Assembly: GCA_030374765.1 (NCBI GenBank)
Contig: JARGXX010000100.1
Coordinates: 744,001-808,000 of the forward strand
Direction: 5' to 3'
Source: Agarophyton chilense
Lineage: Eukaryota; Rhodophyta; Florideophyceae; Gracilariales; Gracilariaceae
DNA length: 64,000 nt
The position numbers and the translations under genes were made by a program. Below the pieces are notes generated by a model. That model had not been told where the DNA came from. It ran no database searches and worked only from the letters and a program-made list of their open reading frames with translations. Shown here one piece after another: positions 9,363-64,000 of the stretch (the first letter of the stretch is position 1; every line of letters begins with the position of its first letter).

Positions 9363-10583
9363 ATTGACAACCAAAAATACTTTTTTCCTTTGGCTTCGAG
9401 ACCTACAACTTTATCAAAAGGTGAGGCGTTTGGCGTAGTATAGGGGTCCATTGAAGCGTTAGCCACTGGGCGGTGCACCCCTATCAGCCCACTACAGCGG
9501 TTGAAGCGCCCTTGGCGTGGTAGGAAGACGGTGTGTGTGTACAAACGGTAGTTTCTCTGTCTAGAAAGCCCGCACAGAGTAAAAAGCCTGTGACGGTCGT
9601 AAAGACTTGGTGGCAATCTGATATCTAGTACTGAATGGGAAGCTCCTGCAAGTGGGGCCGCCTAAGTTTTCTCGCAAAAGTACAGCTTCGGGTATAGACT
9701 GAAAACATATCTTTTTGTTATTATCTTCCTCGGGAAGCCTTGTAGGGATTGTTCACGCCTACTTCTGGTTACTCCGCAGAAGTGGGAATGCTGAAGAAGT
9801 CGTTACGAATCCGAAGTGACTGACCGGAAGCCAGAGTTTCTGACCCCTAGTGACTATTGACAAAAGTTTTTGGTAGTGTTGGTTTAAAATCATCGAGAAG
9901 AAGAAGTTTATATCGAAATATTAATGTCTCATTTCATGTATCTGGGCCAGTCAGTAATGGAAAAGGTATATTTTCGCCGAAGTCTACTGTATTTTGTAGC
10001 ATACAGCCCCACATCCAAAGATGGCGTTCATAGATATCTGATTGGAAACGAAGACGATGGCCTCTCACTTCCGCGCCGGAACGATTCCACTGTACTTGCC
10101 TGTTCTGATGCTGATCGGAGAAGAGATCTTAAAAAATACCGTTTCAGGGAAGAGGTAGAGGGGCACTGCATTTCATTTGGCTCTGTACCACTTTTGTGGA
10201 GCTCGGAATGGAAAAACTTTAACGCGCTCTCAAGATCAGAATCAGAATTATATACGTTTCTGCAGTGCGTCAAACAGCTAAAATGGATCAGGAGAATCTT
10301 TGATGAGATTTCTACTGCAAAACAAGAACACATTGAGATCTATGAAGACCATCTCGGTACATTTGAATGGTTTCAAAATGTGCCTGGTATGCGTCGCGTT
10401 AACCCAAATTGAGCTCTTTTTCAATTATGTTCTTGGTGCTTTGAAAAACAAACGTTGCTCTGTGAAGTACATTGAGTCTTCCAAAAATCCTGCGGATATG
10501 TTTATAAAATCACTGAACGAAGGTTCGTTCATTCAGCATCGTAAAATTTTCGAAATTAATCCTTGCATGAGCGAGGGGGGCTT

Positions 10584-10668
10584 TCAGTGAGTTTTGTGTT
10601 TGTAGTAATCAAGAGTTTGATATTAATCCTGTGCATATATATTGTTTTGTATTTGAGTGTTTAACGAG
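10584..10668 (+). repeat. Copia-1 right terminal direct repeat
   Basis: Partner of 5362-5446. It is directly preceded by a purine-rich tract (GAGCGAGGGGGG), the expected plus-strand primer of an LTR element. Confidence 0.65.
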
Positions 10669-11995
10669 TGCTTTATAAAAAATGTTTTTGTCATTTTACT
10701 ACCTTCTTTCTCGCATAATTTTGATTATTATAAAAGCAAGGTAGAAAACACTACAACTTATGTTTTCTACCTCAACAAACAACTTTTTCAAAACATAACC
10801 TTGGCTAAGAATTCCAGGTGTGCTCGTGGGTGGTCAACAATAGGTGCTAGCATTCTAACTATGAAACAGTTGTAGTGCAGAGTATCAAAACAAAATCTAA
10901 AGAAGGCGCTGCTGTCGATGATTTCGAAAAAAGTTTTGGTATCAATCTGTGTGTTTAACAGTTGAAAGAGTTTATGTTTTGGTTGCACAGGTTTGGCGCC
11001 AAAATTTGAATTGGAGATGTTTTTTGTCTTATGCATTTATCCGTGATGCTTTTTAAGTGCATAATTTGATTTTATGTACATCGCAATGATAATATGTGGA
11101 GCAATAAGGTATATACGTTTCATACAAATCATATGTGCAAAATGTCTTTCACAGGAGTTGCGCCATTCTGGCATATTGATGTTTGAAAGAACACATTAAA
11201 TTATTTCAGACAGATTAGGTGATAAACAGTTTAAGCCTTTTTAGGGTTGTGCAATAAATTTTGCACACATGTATTTCTCGTTACCCGTTATGGCTCTATG
11301 CCGTGAGGCCAGTGCATGAGGAGATGGCCCTATCTGTTGTGCGTTTTGCCGCATTTCCCCCAAAAGATCGTGTGGTCGAAAGCTTGGCAAGAGAGCAGCA
11401 GGCAAGGGCCCGGCTGTGGGCGCGGAGAGGGTGCTGCTGATGGAACTGTAAGCCGACTGCTCATTCTTCAATCGAGTACAATGCATACGAGAAATAGGCG
11501 TTTTCAGAGTGTGTTTGCTCTATCGGCGGACACAAATGCTCTAGTAGCAGAATCGGCTTTTAGATCACTGACAAAGCAGACGCGCGCCAGCAGTAGGGGT
11601 TGATTACAGAGGCGAAGCGTAGCAGTTCGAAGGGGATGCAGCGGGCAACAATCGCGTGGCGTGGCGCTTTTTCACCGAGGCGCAGTGGAAGAAGCGGCTA
11701 TCCGGGCGAGTTAGAGTTGAGGTCGAAACCGGTGTATCTATGTCGTCCACATTCTGGCGTGCATTGCCATCGTCATCAACCCTCGATCGCCCCCCCCATC
11801 GGCGATGCGCGGCAACCGACTCGTGCCGGACGGCGGCATCGCCGTTACACTCGAGCTCTTCGTCACCGAATCTTTCTTTTCTTGTCCACGCCGCACCAAA
11901 TCGTGCATTGCGTCGTCGTCGTCGTGTGATTTCCGTGCATGCTTCGCCTCGCCCCATCCTACATGGCAGGACCCGGCGCCGATGTGCGCGCGGCC
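10669..11995. other. Intergenic region upstream of the GH113-like gene
   Basis: No gene recognised. The first 600 bases are AT-rich and hold a perfect 12-bp hairpin (10739-10772). The last 700 are GC-rich with overlapping ORFs on both strands that look like composition artefacts. The end carries the TATA box of the next gene. Confidence 0.5.
10739..10772. repeat. Perfect 12-bp inverted repeat (hairpin)
   Basis: AGGTAGAAAACA is followed after a 10-nt loop by its exact reverse complement TGTTTTCTACCT. It lies 70 bp beyond the Copia-1 right repeat. Function unknown. Confidence 0.8.
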
Positions 11996-12003
11996 TATAA
12001 AAA
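11996..12003 (+). promoter_or_regulatory. TATA box of the GH113-like gene
   Basis: TATAAAAA in a GC-rich setting (GGCC on either side), 97 bp before the chosen ATG. It is the only TATA-like element in the 700 GC-rich bases upstream, which supports a leader of about 70 nt and the start at 12100. Confidence 0.6.
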
Positions 12004-12099
12004 CGGCCGACCAGTTCTCGATTGCCGCCCGCTCGCCGCCCCTCAACAGCACTTGTTCACCTTGGTAAAGCTCGGAACCTCCTCACCACAATCGCCGTC

Positions 12100-13509
12100 A
12101 TGATCCGCCAGCTCCGACTGTTGCCGCTGTTGGGCGCACTGCTTCTTTCTACCGTTGTCGCCAATGCGCTTGAAATCATGGGCGCTGCCTTCTCCACTGG
12201 CCACGACACATTGGGCTATCGCCAGTGGTATGTGCACAGCTCGCTGCAACAACTAAAGAGCACTGGCGCCAACTTCGTCCAGATCTCCGTGTATTCCAAG
12301 ATGCCCAATTTGAACGCCATGTATGCCACCCAGAACACGGATGACGAATCCATTCGCTTCATCGTCCGCAAGGTGAAGAGCATGGGCTTCAAAGTGTTTC
12401 TCAAGCCTGTTGTCGAAATTGAGGGCGACACTTGGAGGGGTTTTGTAAGTTAATGTTTTGTCCTCAATACAAATTGCACTGGTTGACGCGTTGGTACTGA
12501 CAATTTGCATCAATCATCACCTCATTCGGAGAGTAGCTTGCCGGCAGTCCACTGTGGTTTGAGAAGGTTTATCGACCGTTCATCAATCACATGGCACGTA
12601 TAGCGCAACAGGAGCGCGTCGAGGTCTTCTCTATCGGCTCTGAGTATCGTAACAGCGAAGTACAAGTCCACGAGTGGAACAAGGTCATAGATGATGTGAA
12701 AAAACTCTACTTTGGTCGGATTACCTATATTGCTAACCATGATGTACGTGTGCACCTCCCGGTTCTCTATGTGACTGTGTGTATGCGGAGAGAAGATTGT
12801 GCTAACATTCGACCATGTGTCCTTTGACATTCCAAAATCCTTTGGAACAGTCTTACAAGAGGTTTCAACTATGGCATCGTCTGCACTTCATCTCCATATC
12901 AGCTTATTTTCAGTTGCTGCCCGGTGTGCGCGGATCTTCTCCAAACTTGGAAGAGACCAAGAAAATATGGCGTCAAAAAGCTGATGAGATCTGGAAATGG
13001 CGCGCGCAACGCGGTCTTACCGCCCAGAAGGTGGTCATGGCTGAAGTGGGCGTTCAAAGCAAGGGTAAGCGAACTTCTTTTCGCGCTTCATGGCCATCTC
13101 GGCGGCACTGTGGACATTCTTGAAGCCACTAACATTCTGAAACGATTGCATTCGCAAACACAAAAGGCGACGGAGTGGTTTACCGTGTGCCGTGGGATTG
13201 GAAGGTGAACGCGCCGGTCAACTTTGACGATCAGGTGAGTACACTGCCGTCTCTCCGAATTCAATATTTCTCTCTCCCGCTAGCGTTGTACTAACAAAAT
13301 GTCTCTGATCTTGCCACGCTGGAAAACAGGCGAAAATGTATGAGGGAATTTGCAATGCGTTCAGCGACGGCCGATGGGTTGGAGGAATTCTCTTTTGGAA
13401 CTGGGAGTTGCAGCCGAACGCCGGTACATACTATCCCACTGCGGAAGATTACACGCCACAGAACAAGCCTGCGCAACAGGTCATGAGGCGTTATTTCAGC
13501 ACACGCTGA
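12100..13509 (+). CDS. Secreted GH113-like glycoside hydrolase, 5 exons
   Basis: I assembled a 337-residue protein from exons 12100-12444, 12537-12743, 12851-13064, 13167-13234 and 13330-13509. All introns are GT-AG (92, 107, 102 and 95 nt) and every junction keeps frame. Residues 1-25 are a signal peptide. The rest is a TIM barrel of the GH113 type, known mainly as beta-1,4-mannanases. It has a WRG motif near residue 113. The putative acid/base Glu151 lies in FSIGSEY, and the putative nucleophile Glu249 in VVMAEVG. The SISAYF strand is near 200, and the C-terminus has an FWNWEL strand and the KPAQQVMRRY helix. All barrel landmarks are present and length is normal, so it looks functional. The substrate is probably a cell-wall mannan or related glucan; that is inference from the family. 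The gene lies 1.2 kb upstream of the channel gene on the same strand. Confidence 0.85.
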
Positions 13510-53462: not shown

Positions 53463-54516
53463 GGGAGCTACTTACTCGCTCTCACGACGACTTATTCTAC
53501 GAACAGGAACCACCACACGGGTGCACAAATCTCACAAAGAAGTTGAAAAGACTGCAATACCTCCCGGGATCATCCCGCCTCCATCGTTATGCATCGCTAA
53601 CAGCGCTTCGCTAACACTGCAGTCGGACGGAACTATAGCGCAAGCCGGAGAATAGATGCGTGCATAATGGCTATTAAAACACGAGCCTCTTATACGGTGG
53701 CCACTTCACCGGCAAATGAACTCCCGAAGAAGCGACGCTTGCGTTCACGACCTGTGCAACCGGCGCTGCACTTGCCGCACAGTTCTGAGAAAAAGGCTTT
53801 GAACGAATCTGGAGATATACCCCGGTGCAGTGTTGTCTTTGGGATTTGAGTTGTTGTTCCAGTTTTCATTCGGTTTGGATATTGACTGACAATTCAGGAG
53901 AGCTGCACGGCGGCTTGATTGTAAAAACCAAGGAATCGGAGAGGCTAACCACAAAGGTGCGTAAGTGGTAGAAACCGACGTTAGAGCGTGTTCACTGCTG
54001 GAAGACTTGGGTTTCACCTTTGCCTTTTCGATACTCTGATTGGAAGACAGAACTAACGTCCAGGGTCTTCTTATACGTTGGTTATACCCTGCTTTGTCCG
54101 CCATCGCGGATGTCGTTCTTTCCGTTGAGGACGGTCATACGAAGTGCTAGCTTCAAAAGCGTAGTTTCCTACGACTTAAACTTTTTACCACTTGCGCGTT
54201 GTTATGATTCTTGTCTCTACTTGCGAAGAACCTGTCAAACATTACAGTGGAAATATCCTGTACATAAGACACACGACGACGAGATCGAAGTAAAGACGAG
54301 TCAGAGCCTTCCTCTCACAGGTTATGGACCCGACGCTACGCCAACGTCGAACGTAACATCCTACCGCCACTCCACCATCTCTTTATCCTCGCAAAACCAT
54401 TCCCTCACCCCTCTCCCATGACGAAGACGCCCGACCCCCGAGAAAACCGTCGCCAATGACGGCAAATCATCAAGGATATCAACGACATCCCAAACGAACT
54501 CTACCAACAATCTATC
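53463..54516. other. Region without a recognised gene, left flank of Copia-6
   Basis: No gene recognised. The 5' LTR of Copia-6 should lie in its right part (about 54000-54500), but with no second LTR in the window its edges cannot be set. Confidence 0.4.
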
Positions 54517-55254: not shown

Positions 55255-56693
55255 TTCAGACGCACGTACAGACCCTTCCGCCGTGGAGGGACATACACCC
55301 AACGCCGACTTCCACCAGGAGCCATACCGTGCAAATTCCACACCGCCCTCTGTGTACCCTTTATACACACAGATGAGGAATGCATGGATCGCAGGCATCC
55401 CAAAATATCACGCCAAGACAAAAGCTCGCATGGCCACCCTGACCACGATACACCTTCCCTACCACTACTATTATCCGCCGAACCATCAGACCCCCCCCCT
55501 CCGGGCAATGCGACTTCCGAACAGGAAACCGAAGAAGACGGTACGTTCATCCTGGACAGTGGGGCTCACCCCACACACCTCACCTCCCCGACATCCACAA
55601 TGACACCGATTACACACCCCATGCTAACCCACACCGCTACCGACAAACAGACACCATGTACGCATCATGAAACAATCAGCATTCGCCCCCAGAAGAGTAA
55701 GGAAACTCTGCAAACACACGCCGTGGCGAACAAATACATCCAACACAACCTCATCTCCTTAAACGATCTAGCATCACGCTATGGCCTCATTGCCTTCACG
55801 TCCACCACAGGTTATGTTATAGACACACACACCAACCCCCTAAAAAACCTTAACGCAGGAAAAGTAGAAAAACAATCAGTATCGATTGAAAGGACACATA
55901 GTAAACGATACACACGCCTACATCTCGAGAACGATACCCCTTAAATCGCCAGTTACAAAAAAACCGACATCCGCTCCACGCCATTCTTTCCTCCACACAA
56001 ACAAGACCAATCCGCCTCAGCCCACAAAGACTGCAACGACACCAAAAGCACCACCCTTCACTGGCAGTCTCAATACGTGCAACAACATCCATACCATGAA
56101 GATGATGCACAATCCGACAATCATCACACCACAAACAGAAGTTCAGACAGCAGTACAAACCTGGCACCTGAGACTGAACCATGTTCATCGAGCTAGACTG
56201 GCACTCACGGCAACCCAAAGACTAATTCCCTACATGCCTAAGACCCTCCCCAAGGACGTCACATTAACATGCAGCGCATGCCGACACGCACAACATTCCC
56301 CAGCGCCACACAAGCCCAAGATCCACTACTATCCAGTCGGCGCGTACATCAGCTTGGATACTTGCGGGCCGGTCAATCCAACCTCCACGCATGGTAACAA
56401 TCACATATTATTAATCATATGTTCAAGAAGCTACTTTGGGATCGCCCATTTCATCAAAGACCGCAAACAAATCCCCATTTACGTTGATACCACGCTTCAA
56501 CACATCAAGAATCGAATGCAACACCCCCTCTCCGACTTCAGAAGCGACAACGCCAAAGAATATACATCAAAGACGATGACCGCTATATACAACAAACATC
56601 AGGTACAACACCATCTTCTCACGCCCCATCAGCCGCAAGAAAATTCCATAGCCGAACGATTCAACCGAACCATGATGAATTCCGTTCGTGTCC
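54517..56693 (+). mobile_element. Copia-6: copia element cut by the Gypsy-C LTR
   Basis: Plus-strand parts in copia order: gag (54517-55254, LPELDTSKYAPWYLALETHA, of the UBN2-type copia gag), protease (about 55535-55600, FILDSGAHPTHL), integrase finger (HLRLNHVHRARL ... CSACRHAQH, about 56160-56300) and integrase core (ISLDTCGPVN, FRSDNAKEY, ENSIAERFNRTMM). Reading stops at about 56693, where the Gypsy-C LTR begins. Codons are rich in A and C, unlike every other element here. The element is broken, with a few breaks besides the insertion. Confidence 0.85.
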
Positions 56694-56722
56694 TGTGTGA
56701 GATAGCGCCGAAAGGCGTGTAA
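55886..56722 (+). CDS. Copia-6 integrase region
   Basis: Carries the copia pre-integrase finger (WHLRLNHVHRA, CSACRHAQH) and the DDE core with its three catalytic acids visible in LDTCGPV, RSDNAKEY and ENSIAERF. It ends where the Gypsy-C LTR sequence starts; the last codons belong to that LTR. It is part of a fossil element. Confidence 0.75.
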   Translation: MKGHIVNDTHAYISRTIPLKSPVTKKPTSAPRHSFLHTNKTNPPQPTKTATTPKAPPFTGSLNTCNNIHTMKMMHNPTIITPQTEVQTAVQTWHLRLNHVHRARLALTATQRLIPYMPKTLPKDVTLTCSACRHAQHSPAPHKPKIHYYPVGAYISLDTCGPVNPTSTHGNNHILLIICSRSYFGIAHFIKDRKQIPIYVDTTLQHIKNRMQHPLSDFRSDNAKEYTSKTMTAIYNKHQVQHHLLTPHQPQENSIAERFNRTMMNSVRVLCEIAPKGV

Positions 56723-57258
56723 GTTTCCTAGAGGCGCGATCCGTGCGGAGTCCGTAAGCGGGGCGTGCGTGTCACATGAGGCCGGTCGGGGAACGGTGAC
56801 GCGTGGAGACGAGCGCCAGCACCGGGCGGTCGTAGGGAGACTAGGCGGTTGGGAACGTCAGGTGCGATCGAGGTACGCGCGAAGAGTCCGAACGGCTTGT
56901 AAACCTGTAGATATCCCGTGCGGAGTAACGCTTCAGGTCTGCTTTAGAAACGATACTTAGACTTGGACGGTGGTGCTTACCCTTTACTGTTTGGAGGGAG
57001 GCGGGGAGCGGAGGTGCATAAGTAGTGTGCACCTCCGAGCTGCAACCCGCATTACAGTCCGTGGTGGCGCCTGCACCCACGTGGCGGAAATATCACGAGG
57101 TGGGGGACGCCAACTACCTACAACTATGCTACGTGTCAACCTACTGTACATGTCCGTCCGGTGTGCCATCTTCGCACACGTGTGCGACCAGGCCACTTGC
57201 ACTCAGTCCTGACCACGCCCTTCTTACCTGACAACCCGCTCGGATTCACTATACTACA
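56696..57258 (-). repeat. Gypsy-C 3' LTR
   Basis: On the plus strand it starts TGTGAGATAG (or two bases earlier) where Copia-6 coding stops and ends ACTATACTACA, giving TGT...ACA edges. Directly beyond lies GACCCCCCTCCTAGAG, the complement of a polypurine tract. About 563 bp. The partner LTR is off-window, so the edges are inferred. Confidence 0.65.
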
Positions 57259-57274
57259 GACCCCCCTCCTAGAG
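57259..57274 (-). other. Gypsy-C polypurine tract
   Basis: Minus strand CTCTAGGAGGGGGGTC immediately next to the LTR edge; the normal plus-strand primer of LTR elements. It fixes the inner boundary of the 3' LTR. Confidence 0.6.
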
Positions 57275-57401
57275 CGCGCGACATCCTCGGAGCGCCAGTA
57301 TCCTAGGCAGTAGCTGGTTGAGCGTGCACCGAGCGGACACGGCGTTACGTTCGCGGACCGACACGAAACGCGCTAGAAGCGACCGGTCGCGTTATACGGG
57401 C

Positions 57402-57513
57402 CCGTTCGGAGATCCGCATTGTGCCACAGCCGCTCGGAAAGGCCTGTAATAGCGCAGCCGTTCGGGAGTAGACGTTATATCGCAGCCGTTCGGTAGTGCC
57501 CGTCAAATCGCGC
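57402..57513 (+). repeat. Four 28-bp tandem repeats upstream of the antisense ORFs
   Basis: Units start at 57402, 57430, 57458 and 57486, exactly 28 bp apart. Each opens CCGTTCGG (CCGCTCGG in the second), and the first three end in CAG. The middle bases vary, so the start and the spacing are what is kept. The array ends 26 bp before a TATA-like box. It is likely a promoter-proximal binding-site array; that function is inference. Confidence 0.8.
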
Positions 57514-57539
57514 CCGCCGGCGAGCGGTCGTCGGTGGTG

Positions 57540-57547
57540 TATTTAAG
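57540..57547 (+). promoter_or_regulatory. TATA-like box for the antisense unit
   Basis: TATTTAAG on the plus strand, an AT island in a very GC-rich stretch, 105 bp before the ATG at 57652 and just after the 28-bp repeat array. It is inside the element but outside the LTR as drawn here. Confidence 0.55.
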
Positions 57548-57651
57548 CACGTCTTTGTCCCGGGCGGAGTGACGGGTAGACTCCAGAGAAGACCGTTGCG
57601 GCCGTTCCGAAGAGTACGGACTCAGAGGCCACGTGTCCGTTTGGTTCAACC

Positions 57652-58224
57652 ATGGAGGACAACAACAGCGCTGTCAACCGTGACCGGGAGGAGAACGCGG
57701 GGCGTCAGACAACTTCAGCCCTGGCAGATATACCAATACCGCGACGGGTAGCGGTAACCGCGCCCGCTGCAGCGCCCGTAGAGCCTCCGTTCGGTGCCCA
57801 AAGTGGGGGCTACGCGGTTTGGGATGCCCGCCAGGCGGGGGTTTCACCGGTGTCGTCGGGAAACCCTCCCGTGCCTTCGTTTCTCCCGTTCGGTGCCTTA
57901 CAGCCGCAGATAGTGGGGCGTGTTGGCGCGGGCGTGCTGATTCCTCCGTTCGGATACGGAACACCCGGAGCGGGCTTGCCCGGTGTGTTTCGAAACCCGC
58001 TACCCGGGCAGCAGCACGACCACCGCTGGCGACAACCGCAGGGCCGTAGGGGCGGGCCGACCGGGAAAGAGCCCCCGTTTTCGGTCGAGACGTTGATCTC
58101 GGGGGACGAATGGAGCGGATGCTTGGACGCGCGGCGGTTCGGCGCAATACAGACGGAGCGAACGTTTTTCGAACGGACCGGCCGGAATCCGAAGCGGACG
58201 CGCCACGAGGCGTGGCGTGCGTGA
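57652..58224 (+). CDS. Gypsy-C antisense ORF-A, 190 residues, unknown
   Basis: Starts in a good context (ACCATGG) downstream of the TATA-like box. Low-complexity protein rich in Pro, Gly, Arg and Ala. Three PFG motifs occur (VEPPFGAQ, FLPFGALQ, IPPFGYG), and the C-terminus is basic (RTGRNPKRTRHEAW). There is no signal peptide, membrane segment or zinc finger. It lies 61 nt before ORF-B on the same strand. Plant Tat-clade gypsy elements are known to carry antisense ORFs at this place, but I see no sequence likeness to any known product. It may be a nucleic-acid-binding or disordered accessory protein; no function is claimed. Confidence 0.6.
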   Translation: MEDNNSAVNRDREENAGRQTTSALADIPIPRRVAVTAPAAAPVEPPFGAQSGGYAVWDARQAGVSPVSSGNPPVPSFLPFGALQPQIVGRVGAGVLIPPFGYGTPGAGLPGVFRNPLPGQQHDHRWRQPQGRRGGPTGKEPPFSVETLISGDEWSGCLDARRFGAIQTERTFFERTGRNPKRTRHEAWRA

Positions 58225-58285
58225 TGGAGGCATCTTCCGCGAATAACCGGTCGGGGGGGGGGACGAAACGGTAGGCAGCTGTGAC

Positions 58286-60103
58286 ATGCCGTTCCTCCGT
58301 TGCCCGGAGGAGTATGACTACCAGGGTCGTATGCGCGACCTCGTTACGCAGATGCTGTCAGATGAGAGTATTCCCGATCCGCACGGTAATCCGTTCGGGC
58401 TTGTGATGTTTTCCCCTCCGTACGACGGGCTCTATTTCCTGAACCGACGCCGCTGGGGCGATCATGTCGCGACCGAAGCGCGGATCCGGTCGGGCTTGGG
58501 TGGTTTCATGTACGGGTGGCATAACGTGGAGTTTTTTGACGTTCCGGTGTCCGAGCGAGAAAACTTGTACGTGAGGATTCCGGAGAATTGGCCCGACGTG
58601 GATTTGCCCCGAGATCTGTCCGTGATGACCCCGCCAGTTCTGGCCTACTTTTCCAACGATGTTCTTAGTGGGACGTCGATAGCCGAACGGATCATGCGCG
58701 TAGCGTACGCAGAGTGGGCGGTATGCGCCCTCATGTCATTTTTTCAGGCCGTAACGGAGGGTGTGAGGGTCTTCACCAAAACGGAGGATCCGCGGCTGAA
58801 CTTGTACAGAGGGGATCCTGGTCCGCGCGAGCCCCCTGGGTTGGGACGGTTACTACCGTTACCGTACGGTCTAGTCTGCATCATCATGCAGATGGGGCTG
58901 CGAAATGTGCTCCGCGGAACGCGGTATAAGCCCGAAGAAGCGAGAAGGTGGCTCTTTTTATCCGTCATGACGGACTGGAGGTCGACTCCTGGTTTCTTGT
59001 GGTTCGAACCCCGGTCGGGCGGTTTTCCCACAATGCCCATCCTCCGCGTCAGTGACAATCCCATCGTCCATCGCCTGATCCCGGAGGCGGAGAGGCCTTC
59101 ATGGGAGTTCAAAGACGTTACTGATTACTTTCCGCTTGGATTCATGGACCCCCATTCGCGAAGTGGGGACGGTGACGGGTCCATTGCCGATGCGGATCTA
59201 CCCCTTCCGGCGAACGAACCGTCGACGGTCCAGAGGGCCGTTACCGAGACGGGCATGCAAACGGAAAGTTCCCCGAGAACGGTAGATGCCGGTGTGCAGG
59301 TATCCGCATCGGACGGCGGCGAGGAGCGTGACGCTTGGAGAACGCTGCAGGAAGTTTGCCGGGCGAATGACGAAGAGCCCCCCGAGTCGATGGTCGAAGC
59401 TTTAGAAATGGCGGCTGAGGTATGGGTGCCCCGCGCGGATGCGTTCACCAGCCTGTTGAGCGGGGAAATGGTCAGTACTGTCGACTTGATGTCATATGTC
59501 AGTGCTGTCTGCGTTGAGCTCCTCCAGCAGCACATCAATGCCTTTGGAGACATGGTAACCCGACCGGGCGGCGCGACAGTGTCCCAGCTTATTGGGCGTC
59601 TGGACCTGTCGATGGGGCGTACGAACGACGCCGCCCATGAGTGGCTGCAGAGAGTCCGAGCGGCAATACAGTCCGGGTCATTCTCCGCGGCGCCTGGGGC
59701 TTCCAACGTCCTGGCGGCTGAGGTCGTGGCGGGCGCATCGATGCCGGACCGGGTGGGGGATGCTGAGGACTCACCGACAGTGAGGGCGGCGGCTCAGGCC
59801 GCTGCGTCGCCGCGCGGGGAGGAAGAAACCGAAGGGCCCCCTCCTGGCTGGGGTCCGACGGACGAGGCCTCCGTACCGACCGGGCCTCTTTCCTCTCTGA
59901 GTCGTACCGTTCGGAGGGTTGTGCATGGTACGGCGGTTAGTGCCCTCTTTCAGCTGTCTGGACGTCGTTTGGGCTCCCCGTCGCCGGTACCAGCTCCTGG
60001 AGTTGCTGCCAGGGGTGCTTTGAGAGGCATTGATCGTGACCGTGCTGTCCGTCGCGGAAATGACTTTGTAGGGCCCCGTGGTCTTTGGCAGAAGTTTCCG
60101 TGA
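58286..60103 (+). CDS. Gypsy-C antisense ORF-B, 605 residues, orphan
   Basis: A long open frame on the strand opposite to the element genes. Residues 1-280 look like a folded alpha/beta domain rich in aromatic residues (for example YDGLYFLNRRRWG, PVLAYFSNDV, EWAVCALMSFFQAV, LPLPYGLVCIIMQ). Residues 290-350 are acidic and Ser/Thr-rich with two related short motifs (ETGMQTESSP, DAGVQVS). Residues 355-470 are helical, and the tail from 480 is Ala/Pro/Ser-rich. No signal peptide, clear membrane span or known catalytic motif is seen. The last 333 nt overlap the integrase tail in antisense. A relic of its N-terminal domain seems to lie at 52953-53462. The family is not one I recognise. Confidence 0.65.
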   Translation: MPFLRCPEEYDYQGRMRDLVTQMLSDESIPDPHGNPFGLVMFSPPYDGLYFLNRRRWGDHVATEARIRSGLGGFMYGWHNVEFFDVPVSERENLYVRIPENWPDVDLPRDLSVMTPPVLAYFSNDVLSGTSIAERIMRVAYAEWAVCALMSFFQAVTEGVRVFTKTEDPRLNLYRGDPGPREPPGLGRLLPLPYGLVCIIMQMGLRNVLRGTRYKPEEARRWLFLSVMTDWRSTPGFLWFEPRSGGFPTMPILRVSDNPIVHRLIPEAERPSWEFKDVTDYFPLGFMDPHSRSGDGDGSIADADLPLPANEPSTVQRAVTETGMQTESSPRTVDAGVQVSASDGGEERDAWRTLQEVCRANDEEPPESMVEALEMAAEVWVPRADAFTSLLSGEMVSTVDLMSYVSAVCVELLQQHINAFGDMVTRPGGATVSQLIGRLDLSMGRTNDAAHEWLQRVRAAIQSGSFSAAPGASNVLAAEVVAGASMPDRVGDAEDSPTVRAAAQAAASPRGEEETEGPPPGWGPTDEASVPTGPLSSLSRTVRRVVHGTAVSALFQLSGRRLGSPSPVPAPGVAARGALRGIDRDRAVRRGNDFVGPRGLWQKFP

Positions 60104-60955
60104 GGTACGTTCCTGCTCTTCGAGCACGCCACCGGTCGGAGTTGTCATAGGACGGTCAAGGAAGACCTCCTCGTCGGCCGCAAATGTGAGGGTTGCCCGT
60201 ACGGATTTGTCGAAGTCCGCCTTGTAGCACTGTTGCGCATTTGTGAGGCGGTTCCGAGCAGACTGGAGCGTAACCTTGAGAAGCCTGAGTGTGTAGTGCT
60301 TCATCTGTCCCGGGGTTGGCTGCGTCGGTGTTGCTGGGTCCGTGGCGGAGCTGGGTTCGTCCAGGAAAACGTTCGGGGGTACGCGGGTCAGGGCCAAATC
60401 GAAAGGCGTGGTGCCCGTGCTTCGGTGTACCTGAAGGTTGTGACCGTACGTTAGCTGCTGTACATACGCGTGCCAGTTAGACTGGGGATCCGCAACGTAG
60501 TGCCGTAGGCACTGGACGAGCGTTTTATGAAACCGTTTGACTTGTCCGTTCGCCTGAGGGTGGTACGCCGTCGTTGTGACGTGTTTCGTACCTAACGCCC
60601 TGCAAATCTCCTCGAAGAACTTCGAGACAAACTGAGGTCCGTTGTCGGTGAGCAAATAGTTCGGAATTCCGTAAGGGTAAGCCCAATTCTCTAAGAACGT
60701 CCGGGCCACCACCGGGGCGGTTGTGGACCGTAGCGGAACTGCTCTGCAGAGCTTTGTGAACCGGTCGGTGATGACGAGGATGTACTCATGTCCAGTGACT
60801 GACTTCGGAAACGGACCGACGATGTCCATTGCCACGAACTCAAGTGGCCCCGCAGCGGGAAAGAGCTTAAGCCGCTTCTGTGAGCGGTTTTGTGTGCCGC
60901 GCATTGCGGCGCACGAGCGGCAATCCCGAGCGGTTTGATAAACATCATTAGCCAT
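59771..60955 (-). CDS. Gypsy-C integrase
   Basis: Contains the end of the zinc finger (CRSCAAMRG), then the DDE core (FVAMDIVGPFPKS, LLTDNGPQFVSKFFEE, TTAYHPQANGQV). A helical region follows, then a GPY-type module (TTGPYKVISATDS), then a basic Arg-rich tail. It is typical Ty3/gypsy integrase length and order. Its 3' end is overlapped by ORF-B on the other strand. It is part of a fossil element. Confidence 0.85.
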   Translation of the reverse strand: MANDVYQTARDCRSCAAMRGTQNRSQKRLKLFPAAGPLEFVAMDIVGPFPKSVTGHEYILVITDRFTKLCRAVPLRSTTAPVVARTFLENWAYPYGIPNYLLTDNGPQFVSKFFEEICRALGTKHVTTTAYHPQANGQVKRFHKTLVQCLRHYVADPQSNWHAYVQQLTYGHNLQVHRSTGTTPFDLALTRVPPNVFLDEPSSATDPATPTQPTPGQMKHYTLRLLKVTLQSARNRLTNAQQCYKADFDKSVRATLTFAADEEVFLDRPMTTPTGGVLEEQERTSRKLLPKTTGPYKVISATDSTVTINASQSTPGSNSRSWYRRRGAQTTSRQLKEGTNRRTMHNPPNGTTQRGKRPGRYGGLVRRTPARRGPFGFFLPARRRSGLSRRPHCR

Positions 60956-60976
60956 CTGCGGCCAGTAGAAGTCCCT

Positions 60977-62440
60977 TCAGAGAGTGTTGTACATTCGAGT
61001 CCCGCCCGGGTGTCCTTCCAGGCGCGGATAATGCAAAAGATAGAGGACGCGCGGAACCAGCGAGCGGGGTACCACCTTCTGTAGGGCTCCGTCCAGCGGG
61101 GAGCGACGGATGAGAACTCCGTTACGGTTGATGTCGAAGAGGGTAATCCCATCACCAACGTCCTTCCGCACGGATTTGCAGTACTCGTCCTCCGCCTGCT
61201 CTCTGATGAGCTCTTCCAAAGTGACCGGTCGGACGTTCGTCTCCTCTTCGACGATGGCCATGACCTCGGGGCAGCCGATCGGGTTCTGTCCGTAGTGCCA
61301 GTCAAGGACAGCGTCTGTCTTGACCTCACAGTCGACGGTGATGTCCGCAACGAGGTCGTCGTTCTCTTCCGCGCGGTCCGCAAGGAGTAGGCATGGGACC
61401 TCCTCGTCCAGGGGAGTGGTGTCTTCTCCGTCCGTCTGGATTCGCGACAGCGCGTCAGCGGCCTGGTGTTTTATGCCCGGCCGGTGGACTATATCAAAGT
61501 CATACTCCATGAGACGGAGCCGCCAACGAGCCAGCCGTCCGGAAGCGTCCGCCAGGTTGAGTATCCACCTCAATGCGTGGTGGTCCGTACGGAGGGTGAA
61601 GCGGGCGCCCTCGAGATACGGCCGGAGGTGCAGTATTGCCCACACGACAGCGAGGCATTCCCGTTCGGTTGTGGAATATGACCGCTCAGCTTTATTCAGC
61701 GAGCGGCTCCAGTATCCGATTGGGAGTAAATCACCGTCCGGTTGCTTCTGTAATAAGACGGAACCGACTTGCTTATCGCAAGCGTCGGTATCCAGGACGT
61801 ACGGAATATCTTGACGTGGGATAGCCAGAATGGGGGGACATATTAACCGTTGGCGAAGTTCCTCGAAGGCCTCGTGCTCCGTATCGGTCAGGGTCTCGAA
61901 GTTGAACGGTTTGTTCTTTTCGAGCTTGCTGTTCAACGGGGCCGCAATTCGGGCAAAGCTTTTAACAAAACGTCGGAAGACGTTGCACAGTCCCAAGAAC
62001 GAACGGAGTTCGGTTTGGTTAGTGGGGGTTTTAGCCGCTCGGATAGCATCTCGGGTCCTTGTGGAGACCTGCAGCTTGCCCGGGCGGATAACGTGACCCA
62101 AATAGTCGACAGTACCGCTGAAGAATTGACACTTATCCAAACGGAGAGTGATACCGGCCGATCGGAGTGATGAAAGAATGGTCCGAACATGGTCGAAATG
62201 CTCTGAAACCGTGTGGGAGTAGATTATAACGTCATCCAGATAGACCAACGCGTATTGCCACTTGACGCGGGACAGTATGATGTCCAAGGCCCGTTGAAAT
62301 GTGGCGGGGGCGTTCTTCAAACCGAACGGCATTCGAACATACCTGTACAGTCCCATATGAGACGTGAACGTTGTTTTATCCCAATCGGCTTCATCCACCT
62401 CGGTCTCCCAATAGACGCTGTTCGCCTTTTGCTTCTCCAA
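60977..62440 (-). CDS. pol: Gypsy-C reverse transcriptase (C-terminal part), RNase H and linker
   Basis: RT palm motifs (MPFGLKNAPATFQRALD, ALVYLDDVIIYS with the YLDD box), thumb and connection. RNase H follows (YVLDTDACDKQVG, the YSTTERECLAVVW stretch and the end HQAADALSRI), then a linker ending in the integrase zinc-finger histidines (LLHYPRLEGHPGG). Strong likeness to Gypsy-A shows common descent. It is part of a fossil element. Confidence 0.9.
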   Translation of the reverse strand: MEKQKANSVYWETEVDEADWDKTTFTSHMGLYRYVRMPFGLKNAPATFQRALDIILSRVKWQYALVYLDDVIIYSHTVSEHFDHVRTILSSLRSAGITLRLDKCQFFSGTVDYLGHVIRPGKLQVSTRTRDAIRAAKTPTNQTELRSFLGLCNVFRRFVKSFARIAAPLNSKLEKNKPFNFETLTDTEHEAFEELRQRLICPPILAIPRQDIPYVLDTDACDKQVGSVLLQKQPDGDLLPIGYWSRSLNKAERSYSTTERECLAVVWAILHLRPYLEGARFTLRTDHHALRWILNLADASGRLARWRLRLMEYDFDIVHRPGIKHQAADALSRIQTDGEDTTPLDEEVPCLLLADRAEENDDLVADITVDCEVKTDAVLDWHYGQNPIGCPEVMAIVEEETNVRPVTLEELIREQAEDEYCKSVRKDVGDGITLFDINRNGVLIRRSPLDGALQKVVPRSLVPRVLYLLHYPRLEGHPGGTRMYNTL

Positions 62441-63263
62441 GCGAATCGATGCATTCGTCCATTCTCGGTAGTGGGTAAGTATCCCAAACGGTGACTGCGT
62501 TTAGTCGACGGTATTCCACACAGAAGCGTAAACTTCCGTCTTTCTTTTGAGCGAACACAACCGGACTGGCCCACTCGGCCGAAGAAGGCTCAATTACACC
62601 GAGCTCCAACTGCTTGGTGACCTCCTTGCGTTCGAGTTCGCGACGCGCCGGACCCGCACGGTATGGCATCTGGTATATCGGCTTTGTACCAGGTTCCAAT
62701 TGGATCCTGTGCTTCGCTGCCGCGATACGGCCCAGATGGCCGTTCCACATGTCCCGAAACGGTTTGAGGAGCTCAATGACCCTTTCTCGTTCGGATTCGA
62801 ATTCGGGGGACAACTGGACCTTGGCGATCCAGTCGTCTTCTGCGTCAGGCGTTGGCTTTTGTTCGGTGGGCTTCGACACGTCCGAAACGGAAATAGATGC
62901 GTCGTTGGGGCCCCCCTCCTTAGTTTCGTCGCTCCGAGACGGAAAGTCGGGTGTTATTAATGCGACGGGGGAGGGTAACGCCAGGCCGATGAATTTGCCT
63001 TTGTGAAGGCGAACCGAACGATCGGAAAAGTTAGCTACCTGAACGTAGAATGCCACGTCCCGTCGGATTTCCATTACCCCGTTAGCCAAGAGGGTTAACT
63101 CCTCTTTATGAGCGGAGCGGTGATGTCCTTGGATAAACATGAGGCCAGCGGCACGGGAGGTTACCAATACATGAGATTCCGACATTGGTGGTATATAAAC
63201 CGGGCGGGCGACACGAATCTTGTTCGACGGAGGTTCCGGAACGGTAGCTTGGGCTTGTAGCAT
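62391..63263 (-). CDS. pol: Gypsy-C linker and reverse transcriptase N-terminal part
   Basis: After the protease comes a conserved linker also found in Gypsy-A (ANGVMEIRRDVAFYVQVANF versus MDNGVMDIHPNRSFLVTISN). A spacer follows and then the RT fingers (VIEPSSAEWASPVVFAQKKD, VEYRRLNAVT). It is part of a fossil element. Confidence 0.85.
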   Translation of the reverse strand: MLQAQATVPEPPSNKIRVARPVYIPPMSESHVLVTSRAAGLMFIQGHHRSAHKEELTLLANGVMEIRRDVAFYVQVANFSDRSVRLHKGKFIGLALPSPVALITPDFPSRSDETKEGGPNDASISVSDVSKPTEQKPTPDAEDDWIAKVQLSPEFESERERVIELLKPFRDMWNGHLGRIAAAKHRIQLEPGTKPIYQMPYRAGPARRELERKEVTKQLELGVIEPSSAEWASPVVFAQKKDGSLRFCVEYRRLNAVTVWDTYPLPRMDECIDSLGEAKGEQRLLGDRGG

Positions 63264-63302
63264 AGATTGCCCCGACGGGGTTGAGCTCTGCCCGGACGCG
63301 GA

Positions 63303-63719
63303 TTATATCGTTACGGGGGGCGAGTTGCGTAGTACAACAATTCGTTTCGGAGGTAGTATCGCCAAAACGTACTTGTCTATGAAAGACGTGCCGAGTATGC
63401 AGCTGGCAGCGAGATTGCTGGCTACCATAAACTGAACCCGGATGGTCAGCGCTCCAAGCTGGACAAGGAGGGGTACGACCCCCAATATGTCCATTCGGTT
63501 GCGAGACGCATCCGTAATGTTATCCACCGACCGGGGTTGCAACTGCCCTCGCCAGTGGGGAGGAAGGTGCCGCTCGTGGATGAGGTTCGGACCCGCGCCA
63601 GTGTCCAGTACACCTGTAAGTGGAAACTTTACCGATCGGTAGAAGCCGACGGAGAAATTCACTTTATAGTGCAAACTGTTTACCAACATTACTGGCGCGG
63701 CCGGATCGGTTTCATCCAA
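63303..63719 (-). CDS. Gypsy-C aspartic protease
   Basis: Retropepsin-like: strand FSVGFYRSVKFPLTGV, active-site loop DTGAGPNLIHE, then the hydrophobic VVPLLVQLGAL and the ILGTSFID flap-side motif typical of Ty3/gypsy proteases. It is followed by reverse transcriptase. Part of a fossil element. Confidence 0.8.
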   Translation of the reverse strand: MDETDPAAPVMLVNSLHYKVNFSVGFYRSVKFPLTGVLDTGAGPNLIHERHLPPHWRGQLQPRSVDNITDASRNRMDILGVVPLLVQLGALTIRVQFMVASNLAASCILGTSFIDKYVLAILPPKRIVVLRNSPPVTI

Positions 63720-64000
63720 AGCGTCTACAGGGCGTCGCTCCGTCAGGTCGGAGGTCGTACCCGTGTATTCCGCTTCTGTGAGGCTTTCCGGCCTAGGAGA
63801 GTCGTGCGCCTCTACACGCTCTCCTCGGCTTTTTCCTGTTCCATAACGGGCTGAGCTGGAGGTAGCTCGCCACTCGTAGCTCGCGGGGGCTCTTTCTGTA
63901 TGAGCATAACCGGCCGGGGTGAGCTAGCGCGGAATGGGGTAGCCCGTGCAGGGTTGCCCGAGCGTACGACAGTAGAGACCCGAGCGGAGCCATTAGTACC

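Follow-up and report, generated by a model that had tools for sequence, protein, structure and literature searches.

A selected antisense gene between integrase and 3' long terminal repeat in a red-algal Ty3/gypsy element with a chromodomain

We analyzed a 64,000-nucleotide stretch of the genome of the red alga Agarophyton chilense (GCA_030374765.1, contig JARGXX010000100.1, positions 744,001 to 808,000; hereafter the window, in whose coordinates positions are given), which contains a Ty3/gypsy element with pol on the minus strand. This chromodomain-bearing element almost certainly carries a selected accessory gene of its own, about 830 codons long, on the strand opposite pol and between the integrase and the 3' long terminal repeat (LTR). 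A first-pass annotation, made from the letters of the window, had claimed an antisense protein-coding unit borne by such an element, and our results bear this out, as one frame on that strand was kept across copies of the element.

The first-pass annotation described two open reading frames (ORFs) of 190 and 605 amino acids, ORF-A and ORF-B. Their coordinates and their orientation opposite to pol were as claimed, but both are parts of one split gene. Twelve family copies, the window copy included, share a region from about 56785 to 60028, and their examination revealed a conserved frame on the antisense strand: an 828-codon frame running from the ATG at 57652 to a stop was intact in five of the 12 (L002, L003, L006, L008, and L010), open but without the ATG in one (the C88 copy), and interrupted in six, including the window copy, where a frameshift separates ORF-A from ORF-B. 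The intact frame in family copies rules out two separate genes; ORF-A and ORF-B are the damaged halves of one antisense gene. The downstream end of ORF-B is likewise a product of damage. Its similarity to the other copies ends at 60028. Compared with the C88 copy, the window is missing 1492 bp at this point: the final part of the antisense gene, a ~1-kb spacer, and the integrase end with its chromodomain. ORF-B owes its length of 605 residues to accident, its final ~25 residues being spurious. The antisense gene and integrase frames overlap in the window because this deletion joins them; in the C88 copy the two converge without overlap, with about 1 kb between them, and we rejected the overlap as a deletion artefact at 60028.

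Purifying selection on the ORF-B frame, which the first-pass annotation had put forward as a check, was evident between subfamilies. Comparison of the intact copy L010 with seven distinct loci of a diverged sister subfamily gave ratios of nonsynonymous to synonymous change (dN/dS) of 0.28–0.36, comparable to those of gag and pol. L014, a window-family locus with an internal deletion that is not counted among the 12 full copies, gave 0.84. With one pair for each region, the between-subfamily dN/dS was 0.30 for the antisense gene (L010 vs L016), 0.28 for protease–reverse transcriptase–RNase H (PR-RT-RH), 0.18 for integrase (IN), and 0.35 for gag (the gag and pol yardsticks being C88 vs L040 and L016). 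Within the L010–L016 pair, dN/dS was 0.28 in the N-terminal part, 0.17 in core residues 206–299, 0.30 in the C-terminal part, and 0.47 in the tail. In a six-frame control against the sister copy L022, only forward frame 0 was without stops (dN/dS 0.28), the five others holding 11–25; the reverse frame that shares third positions had a dN/dS of 0.32 but 11 stops, and the remaining frames gave 1.33–1.86. Differences from L022 were distributed over the three codon positions of the antisense frame as 59/54/145. In a further lineage of the gene in the same genome (lineage 2), dN/dS of L034 against L035, L036, and L037 was 0.49, 0.39, and 0.65, respectively; by part, the L034–L036 pair gave 0.28 in the core, 0.56 in the N-terminus, and 0.42 in the rest. 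Together, these substitution patterns indicate that the antisense gene has been under purifying selection about as strong as that on gag and pol.

The protein is not the orphan that it had been taken for: relatives occur in several sources, of which those with a name are red algae, and the same genome has more than one lineage. Word-based searches, of which those for P0001 and P0002 covered the best 8000 candidates by shared words, identified four protein relatives among the candidates scored, three of them red-algal and none with a functional name. P0001 from Gracilariopsis chorda (824 amino acids) was 46% identical to ORF-B over 76% of ORF-B, and P0002 (769 amino acids) was a further homologue of similar length. 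P0003 and P0004, both from A. chilense, which like G. chorda belongs to the Gracilariaceae, were 79–80% identical to lineage 2 over about three-quarters of a 311-residue query. In the 79.8 Mb of genome searched, lineage 2 of the antisense gene had at least 60 matches, and the four copies read (L034 to L037) were all opposite pol frames. A third pol lineage (L038 and L039), 57–58% identical in RT and with open pol frames of 1421 and 1425 codons, retained only an antisense remnant in the two copies read, matching L034 from residues ~414–427 to 647 at 29–30%. L028, a decayed copy, was nearest to P0002. In a tree of 12 rows, the window family grouped with the G. chorda protein (support 91/96, just under the program's mark) and P0002 with L028 (95/94; L028 fills only 18% of the columns), while lineage 2 and the A. 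chilense proteins were set apart (100/100), the window family not falling with lineage 2. Provided that the branch uniting the window family with G. chorda is correct, the gene family predates the divergence of these genera, barring transfer of elements between species.

Known protein families gave no match to the product: Pfam was searched with the two window ORFs and then with six antisense proteins (window ORF-B being in both sets), NCBIfam with four antisense proteins, and a profile search of the PDB with the antisense protein found no relative. The N-terminus is variable, and a core of ~270 residues, rich in aromatic residues (11–16% Trp, Phe, and Tyr in four proteins), holds most of the invariant positions. 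No transmembrane stretch was detected, the highest 19-residue hydropathy being 1.53–1.85 in four proteins; this and the antisense orientation rule out an Env-like third ORF. The C-terminal tail is basic and rich in Arg-Gly (RG), with a net charge over the last 60 residues of +13 in the window family and +12 in G. chorda. The tail of P0002 has RG repeats and a net charge of +3, and that of lineage 2 carries PKKRARL, with a net charge of −3. The natural reading of these features is that the product may be nuclear and directed at nucleic acids.

The element occupies 56696 to 66719 and extends beyond the window. By self-comparison, its two LTRs, at 56696–57258 and, beyond the window, at 66157–66719, are 563 bp each and 98.6% identical. 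Its features within the window are as follows.

56696–57258, minus strand: 3' LTR, 563 bp, with ends TGTG..CTACA (self-comparison; the 5' LTR is in L031)
57259–57269, minus strand: polypurine tract, adjoining the 3' LTR end at 57258 (pyrimidines on the plus strand, GACCCCCCTCC; from the sequence)
57373–57407, plus strand: conserved block 5' of the antisense gene, 27 of 30 columns invariant
57453–57511, plus strand: 28-bp repeat, 2.1 copies (single copy in the sister subfamily)
57539–57548, plus strand: TATA-like box GTATTTAAGC, candidate core promoter of the antisense gene
57652–58224, plus strand: ORF-A, 190 amino acids, N-terminal part of the antisense gene; ATG context AACCATGG
58286–60028, plus strand: ORF-B as far as the deletion junction; contains the conserved core and the C-terminal part of the antisense gene, in a different frame from ORF-A in the window copy
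58286–60103, plus strand: ORF-B, full open frame of 605 amino acids (ORF listing)
60028, no strand: site of the 1492-bp deletion as compared with the C88 copy; lost are the antisense-gene end, the spacer, and the integrase end with its chromodomain
60029–60955, minus strand: integrase, rve core; C-terminus removed by the deletion, the frame below 60028 being antisense-gene sequence
60977–62440, minus strand: reverse transcriptase and RNase H; among solved structures, Ty3 is closest
62391–63263, minus strand: first part of the pol RT region; the frame is broken and itself matches no Pfam family, and it falls in the part aligned with the C88 open frame 10091–12349
63303–63719, minus strand: aspartic protease (Pfam RVP)

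From the right edge of the window, the minus-strand Pfam order is RVP, RVT_1, RT_RNaseH, and rve, and the solved structures nearest to the RT are those of Ty3 (7q5b and 4ol8). The LTRs, the Ty3-type RT, and the PR-RT-RH-IN order are those of a Ty3/gypsy element. A chromodomain (PF00385) was matched at the integrase end in two of the four frames tested, those of the C88 copy (E 8.7e-9) and of L035 in lineage 2 (E 4.2e-6), L034 and L037 being without a match. As judged from these domain matches, the element is a chromodomain-bearing Ty3-type element, the chromodomain that defines chromoviruses being found in the less damaged copy. The C88 copy also has, on the sense strand at the gag position, a frame of ~777 codons without a Pfam match. 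In the same copy (L032 9176–9876), a 701-bp inverted piece containing its own LTR end, the candidate promoter, and the start of the antisense gene replaces ~490 bp of pol, an arrangement suggestive of self-integration or recombination. At 57163–57196, close to the inner end of the 3' LTR, is a palindrome with 21-bp arms that are 81% complementary.

Upstream of the antisense gene, both the TATA-like box and the polypurine tract of the first-pass annotation are present, the former as GTATTTAAGC at 57539–57548 and the latter as GACCCCCCTCC on the plus strand next to the LTR end at 57258. Its "repeat array" exists but amounts to only 2.1 copies of 28 bp at 57453–57511, and to one copy in the sister subfamily. 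The TATA-like box lies 112 bp 5' of the ATG and was identical in all 11 rows spanning it (nine of them distinct), which came from both subfamilies. Over the upstream alignment, 64% of 433 columns were invariant, and the best 30-column windows (27 of 30 invariant) start at 57373–57378 and at 57518–57520, the second of these containing the TATA-like box. Three lineage 2 copies have TTATAAG ~94–100 nt before an ATG in ACCATG context, an earlier in-frame ATG making the start uncertain. An imperfect inverted repeat of 10 pairs (G-T allowed) lies directly 5' of the TATA-like box, at 57514–57537. With 13 occurrences in the window, the octamer CCGTTCGG exceeds its expectation of 1.86; 12 of the 13 are inside the element (56888–62329) and three are just upstream of the TATA-like box; the one at 57458 differs in other aligned family copies, and the other two are missing from some sister copies. 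The element is GC-richer than the neighboring sequence, so the octamer is suggestive at most; it may be a binding site or a composition effect. In lineage 2, the inferred LTR has a conserved tRNA-like stretch (L034 ~2309–2360, also in L036 and L037), which carries A-box- and B-box-like words; a tRNA gene was ruled out for this block, as ARAGORN found none. Rfam gave no match at gathering score in 56000–64000.

The layout recurs across the genome. Two listings of antisense-gene matches (72 rows scored of 1234 candidates and 60 of 1595) merged into 102 loci containing the gene or a remnant, and the pol listings comprised 88 rows scored of 4290 candidates and 66 of 4950. The counts given here and below apply among the matches listed and use distinct places, the overlapping labels L015/L023, L016/L024, L018/L027, L019/L025, L020/L026, L021/L022, and L012/L013 each being a single place. 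Pol was within reach of 35 of the 102 antisense loci, and 34 of these 35 were convergent with it within 10 kb (26 at 2.2–2.6 kb and the rest at 0.9–7.8 kb), one being oriented otherwise. Conversely, the gene or a remnant lay downstream in 23 of 26 window-family pol rows.

The gene has also been lost. Seven loci of the sister subfamily have the same limits of a deletion whose length, ~745 bp, rules out an in-frame loss, and broken frames were seen in L015 and L021. A deletion of 57544–59787 is common to L029 and L030, both read, and to four further loci inferred from match limits; two of the loci with this deletion, on C10, look like a duplicated pair, and pol of the L030 element is open over 1439 codons. 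Three kinds of derivative have multiplied without the full gene: those with the ~745-bp deletion, those with the 57544–59787 deletion, and those with the lineage 3 remnant. Because derivatives without it still multiplied, the antisense gene is not required in cis. Either its product acts in trans, or the element can do without it for short periods.

The arrangement has precedents in plants. In the available text of two articles, antisense ORFs between pol and the 3' LTR (aORF-3R) are described for Grande of maize (GENE23), RIRE2 of rice, Retand of Silene, and PvRetro13 of Phaseolus (PMC7264820, PMC11963269) and, outside plants, for Boty of Botrytis and Sclerotinia (PMC7264820). As presented there, the antisense ORF of Grande has a nuclear product and a promoter of its own, that of Retand, a non-chromovirus, has a TRP28 domain, and the function of such ORFs is left open (PMC7264820, PMC11963269). 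The red-algal element has the same arrangement, with a conserved antisense ORF between pol and the 3' LTR kept in most copies read. As far as those descriptions go, it resembles the plant aORF-3R elements in layout, in retention of the ORF, in a conservation similar to that of other element proteins, and in a short tandem repeat near the 3' LTR; a candidate TATA-like box also stands where a promoter upstream of the antisense ORF is reported for Grande. It differs in its red-algal host, in its chromodomain integrase, Retand being described as a non-chromovirus, and in that its antisense protein has no Transposase_28 or SMC match. No plant-labeled sequence relative was among the protein candidates scored. 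The comparison with the Tat clade made in the first-pass annotation is apt for the layout but not for descent, as the integrase ends in a chromodomain and the antisense proteins lack Transposase_28; membership in the Tat/Retand clade is ruled out by the chromodomain and by the absence of any Pfam match, Transposase_28 included, in six antisense proteins. Boty is likened to the element by its published description alone, and protein searches with the antisense gene gave no fungal protein among the candidates scored.

Analogies outside this class are looser. VANC proteins are anti-silencing proteins of the plant VANDAL DNA transposons, a different element class, and offer a possible analogy for a factor encoded by an element that works in trans and benefits defective copies too. 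HBZ of human T-cell leukemia virus type 1 (HTLV-1) is a bZIP protein whose promoter lies in the 3' LTR. The red-algal protein has no bZIP or other Pfam match, its candidate TATA box at 57539 is outside the LTR, and there is no evidence that it shares descent with HBZ. HBZ and related proteins, as antisense regulatory proteins near the 3' end of a reverse-transcribing element, serve here as a working analogy, within what the available text says of them (PMC11963269, PMC7264820).

Among titles and the beginnings of abstracts in the open-licence PMC literature, we found no prior description of antisense ORFs in red-algal elements. Within the searches made, the layout appears to be that of the known aORF-3R class, and the protein family and its red-algal chromodomain setting appear to be new. 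The class gains a lineage far from plants and fungi in which selection on the antisense frame is seen at about the strength found for gag and pol. The three kinds of gene-less or gene-broken derivatives are natural knock-outs that stand beside intact copies in one genome, making the cis-or-trans question testable.

How the gene might serve the element can be outlined as follows. Transcription would start from the gene's own TATA promoter beside the polypurine tract and run towards pol. The product would be soluble, its core rich in aromatic residues and its basic tail either RG-rich or bearing PKKRARL, and inside the nucleus it may act on the chromatin or RNA of the element itself. Such action in trans would promote or tune expression of the whole family, and deleted copies could live off intact ones. 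We consider a trans-acting nuclear mechanism of this kind plausible, if somewhat short of an even chance; the best explanation as a whole, joining the selected antisense accessory gene to this mechanism, comes close to an even chance. A broader version, in which an ancient and hitherto undescribed antisense-encoded family of trans-acting proteins drives or licenses a whole red-algal chromovirus clade, with intact copies helping gene-less derivatives and the protein, directed at chromatin or RNA of the element, countering host silencing, seems to us rather unlikely.

Several observations weigh against the trans-acting reading or against a selected gene. The five intact young copies compared with one another gave dN/dS of 0.62–1.23 and the seven sister loci among themselves 0.57–1.05, so that little recent constraint is visible, although within-family ratios say little because the copies are too young, and gag and pol, compared between the window and C88, were likewise near neutral (0.57–1.08). 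One to four in-frame stops were present in five of the seven sister loci (none in the other two), and the L034–L037 pair of lineage 2 showed a weak codon bias (79/64/81) with its dN/dS of 0.65. As to the layout, 67 of the 102 antisense loci had no pol nearby, and an antisense locus was downstream in only three of the 62 other pol rows of the first pol listing and in only nine of the 66 of the second; free-standing host relatives, or many pol copies without the antisense gene, may exist beyond the matches listed. A nuclear location and nucleic-acid binding are predicted from composition, and in lineage 2 the C-terminal 60 residues, PKKRARL aside, have a net negative charge. Multiplication of gene-less copies would also fit a gene that is merely dispensable.

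Other explanations were also considered. The near-neutral ratios among recent copies, together with the six broken copies of 12 and the one without an ATG, are what a chance long antisense frame or a decaying, functionless passenger would give, but this is hardly credible in view of the 59/54/145 codon-position pattern, the absence of stops from one of six frames only, and the intact long frames in two genera, and it is contradicted by conservation between subfamilies and between genera. The antisense transcript itself could be the main product, pairing with genomic RNA and limiting copy number through double-stranded RNA or transcriptional interference. By layout, the two transcription units would converge and overlap, genomic RNA running through to the 3' LTR, and silencing by double-stranded RNA is named as a possible role of such units in the available text of PMC7264820. 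Since RNA alone would leave unexplained both the dN/dS of 0.17 in the part of the core tested (0.30 overall) and the 824-codon homologue at 46% identity in another genus, we judge this unlikely as the main function; an RNA role and a protein role can coexist.

Two further explanations keep the protein but assign it another task. A captured host gene, kept for host-directed work such as that of an anti-silencing factor, would act in trans and so account for the multiplication of gene-less copies, and conservation across genera would suit it; no host parent was among the four protein relatives found and no known family matched, and we consider this origin quite unlikely. A structural role, as a second Gag-like protein or an RNA-packaging protein encoded on the opposite strand, would fit the RG-rich C-terminal tails of the window family, P0001, and P0002 and a length near 800 residues. 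Such a particle component is very doubtful, as the C88 copy already has its ~777-codon frame at the gag position on the sense strand, the antisense protein had no match among Gag or nucleocapsid families, and gene-less copies have multiplied, although supply in trans would permit that.

The surroundings of the element show further traces of insertion. The window element sits, at 56695/66720, within a plus-strand frame that by eye resembles a Ty1/copia-type integrase. Its flanks (..TCCTG and CCCTG..) form a 5-bp target duplication with one difference, and an 88-bp stretch at 54233–54320 recurs on the other side of the element at 68796–68883 (L031) with 95% identity. At the left edge of the window, 209–2212 on the minus strand is pol of a lineage 2 element whose antisense gene lies just outside (C100:739766–742000, plus strand; L037), and repeated stretches of 77–82% there suggest two partial lineage 2 elements in tandem.

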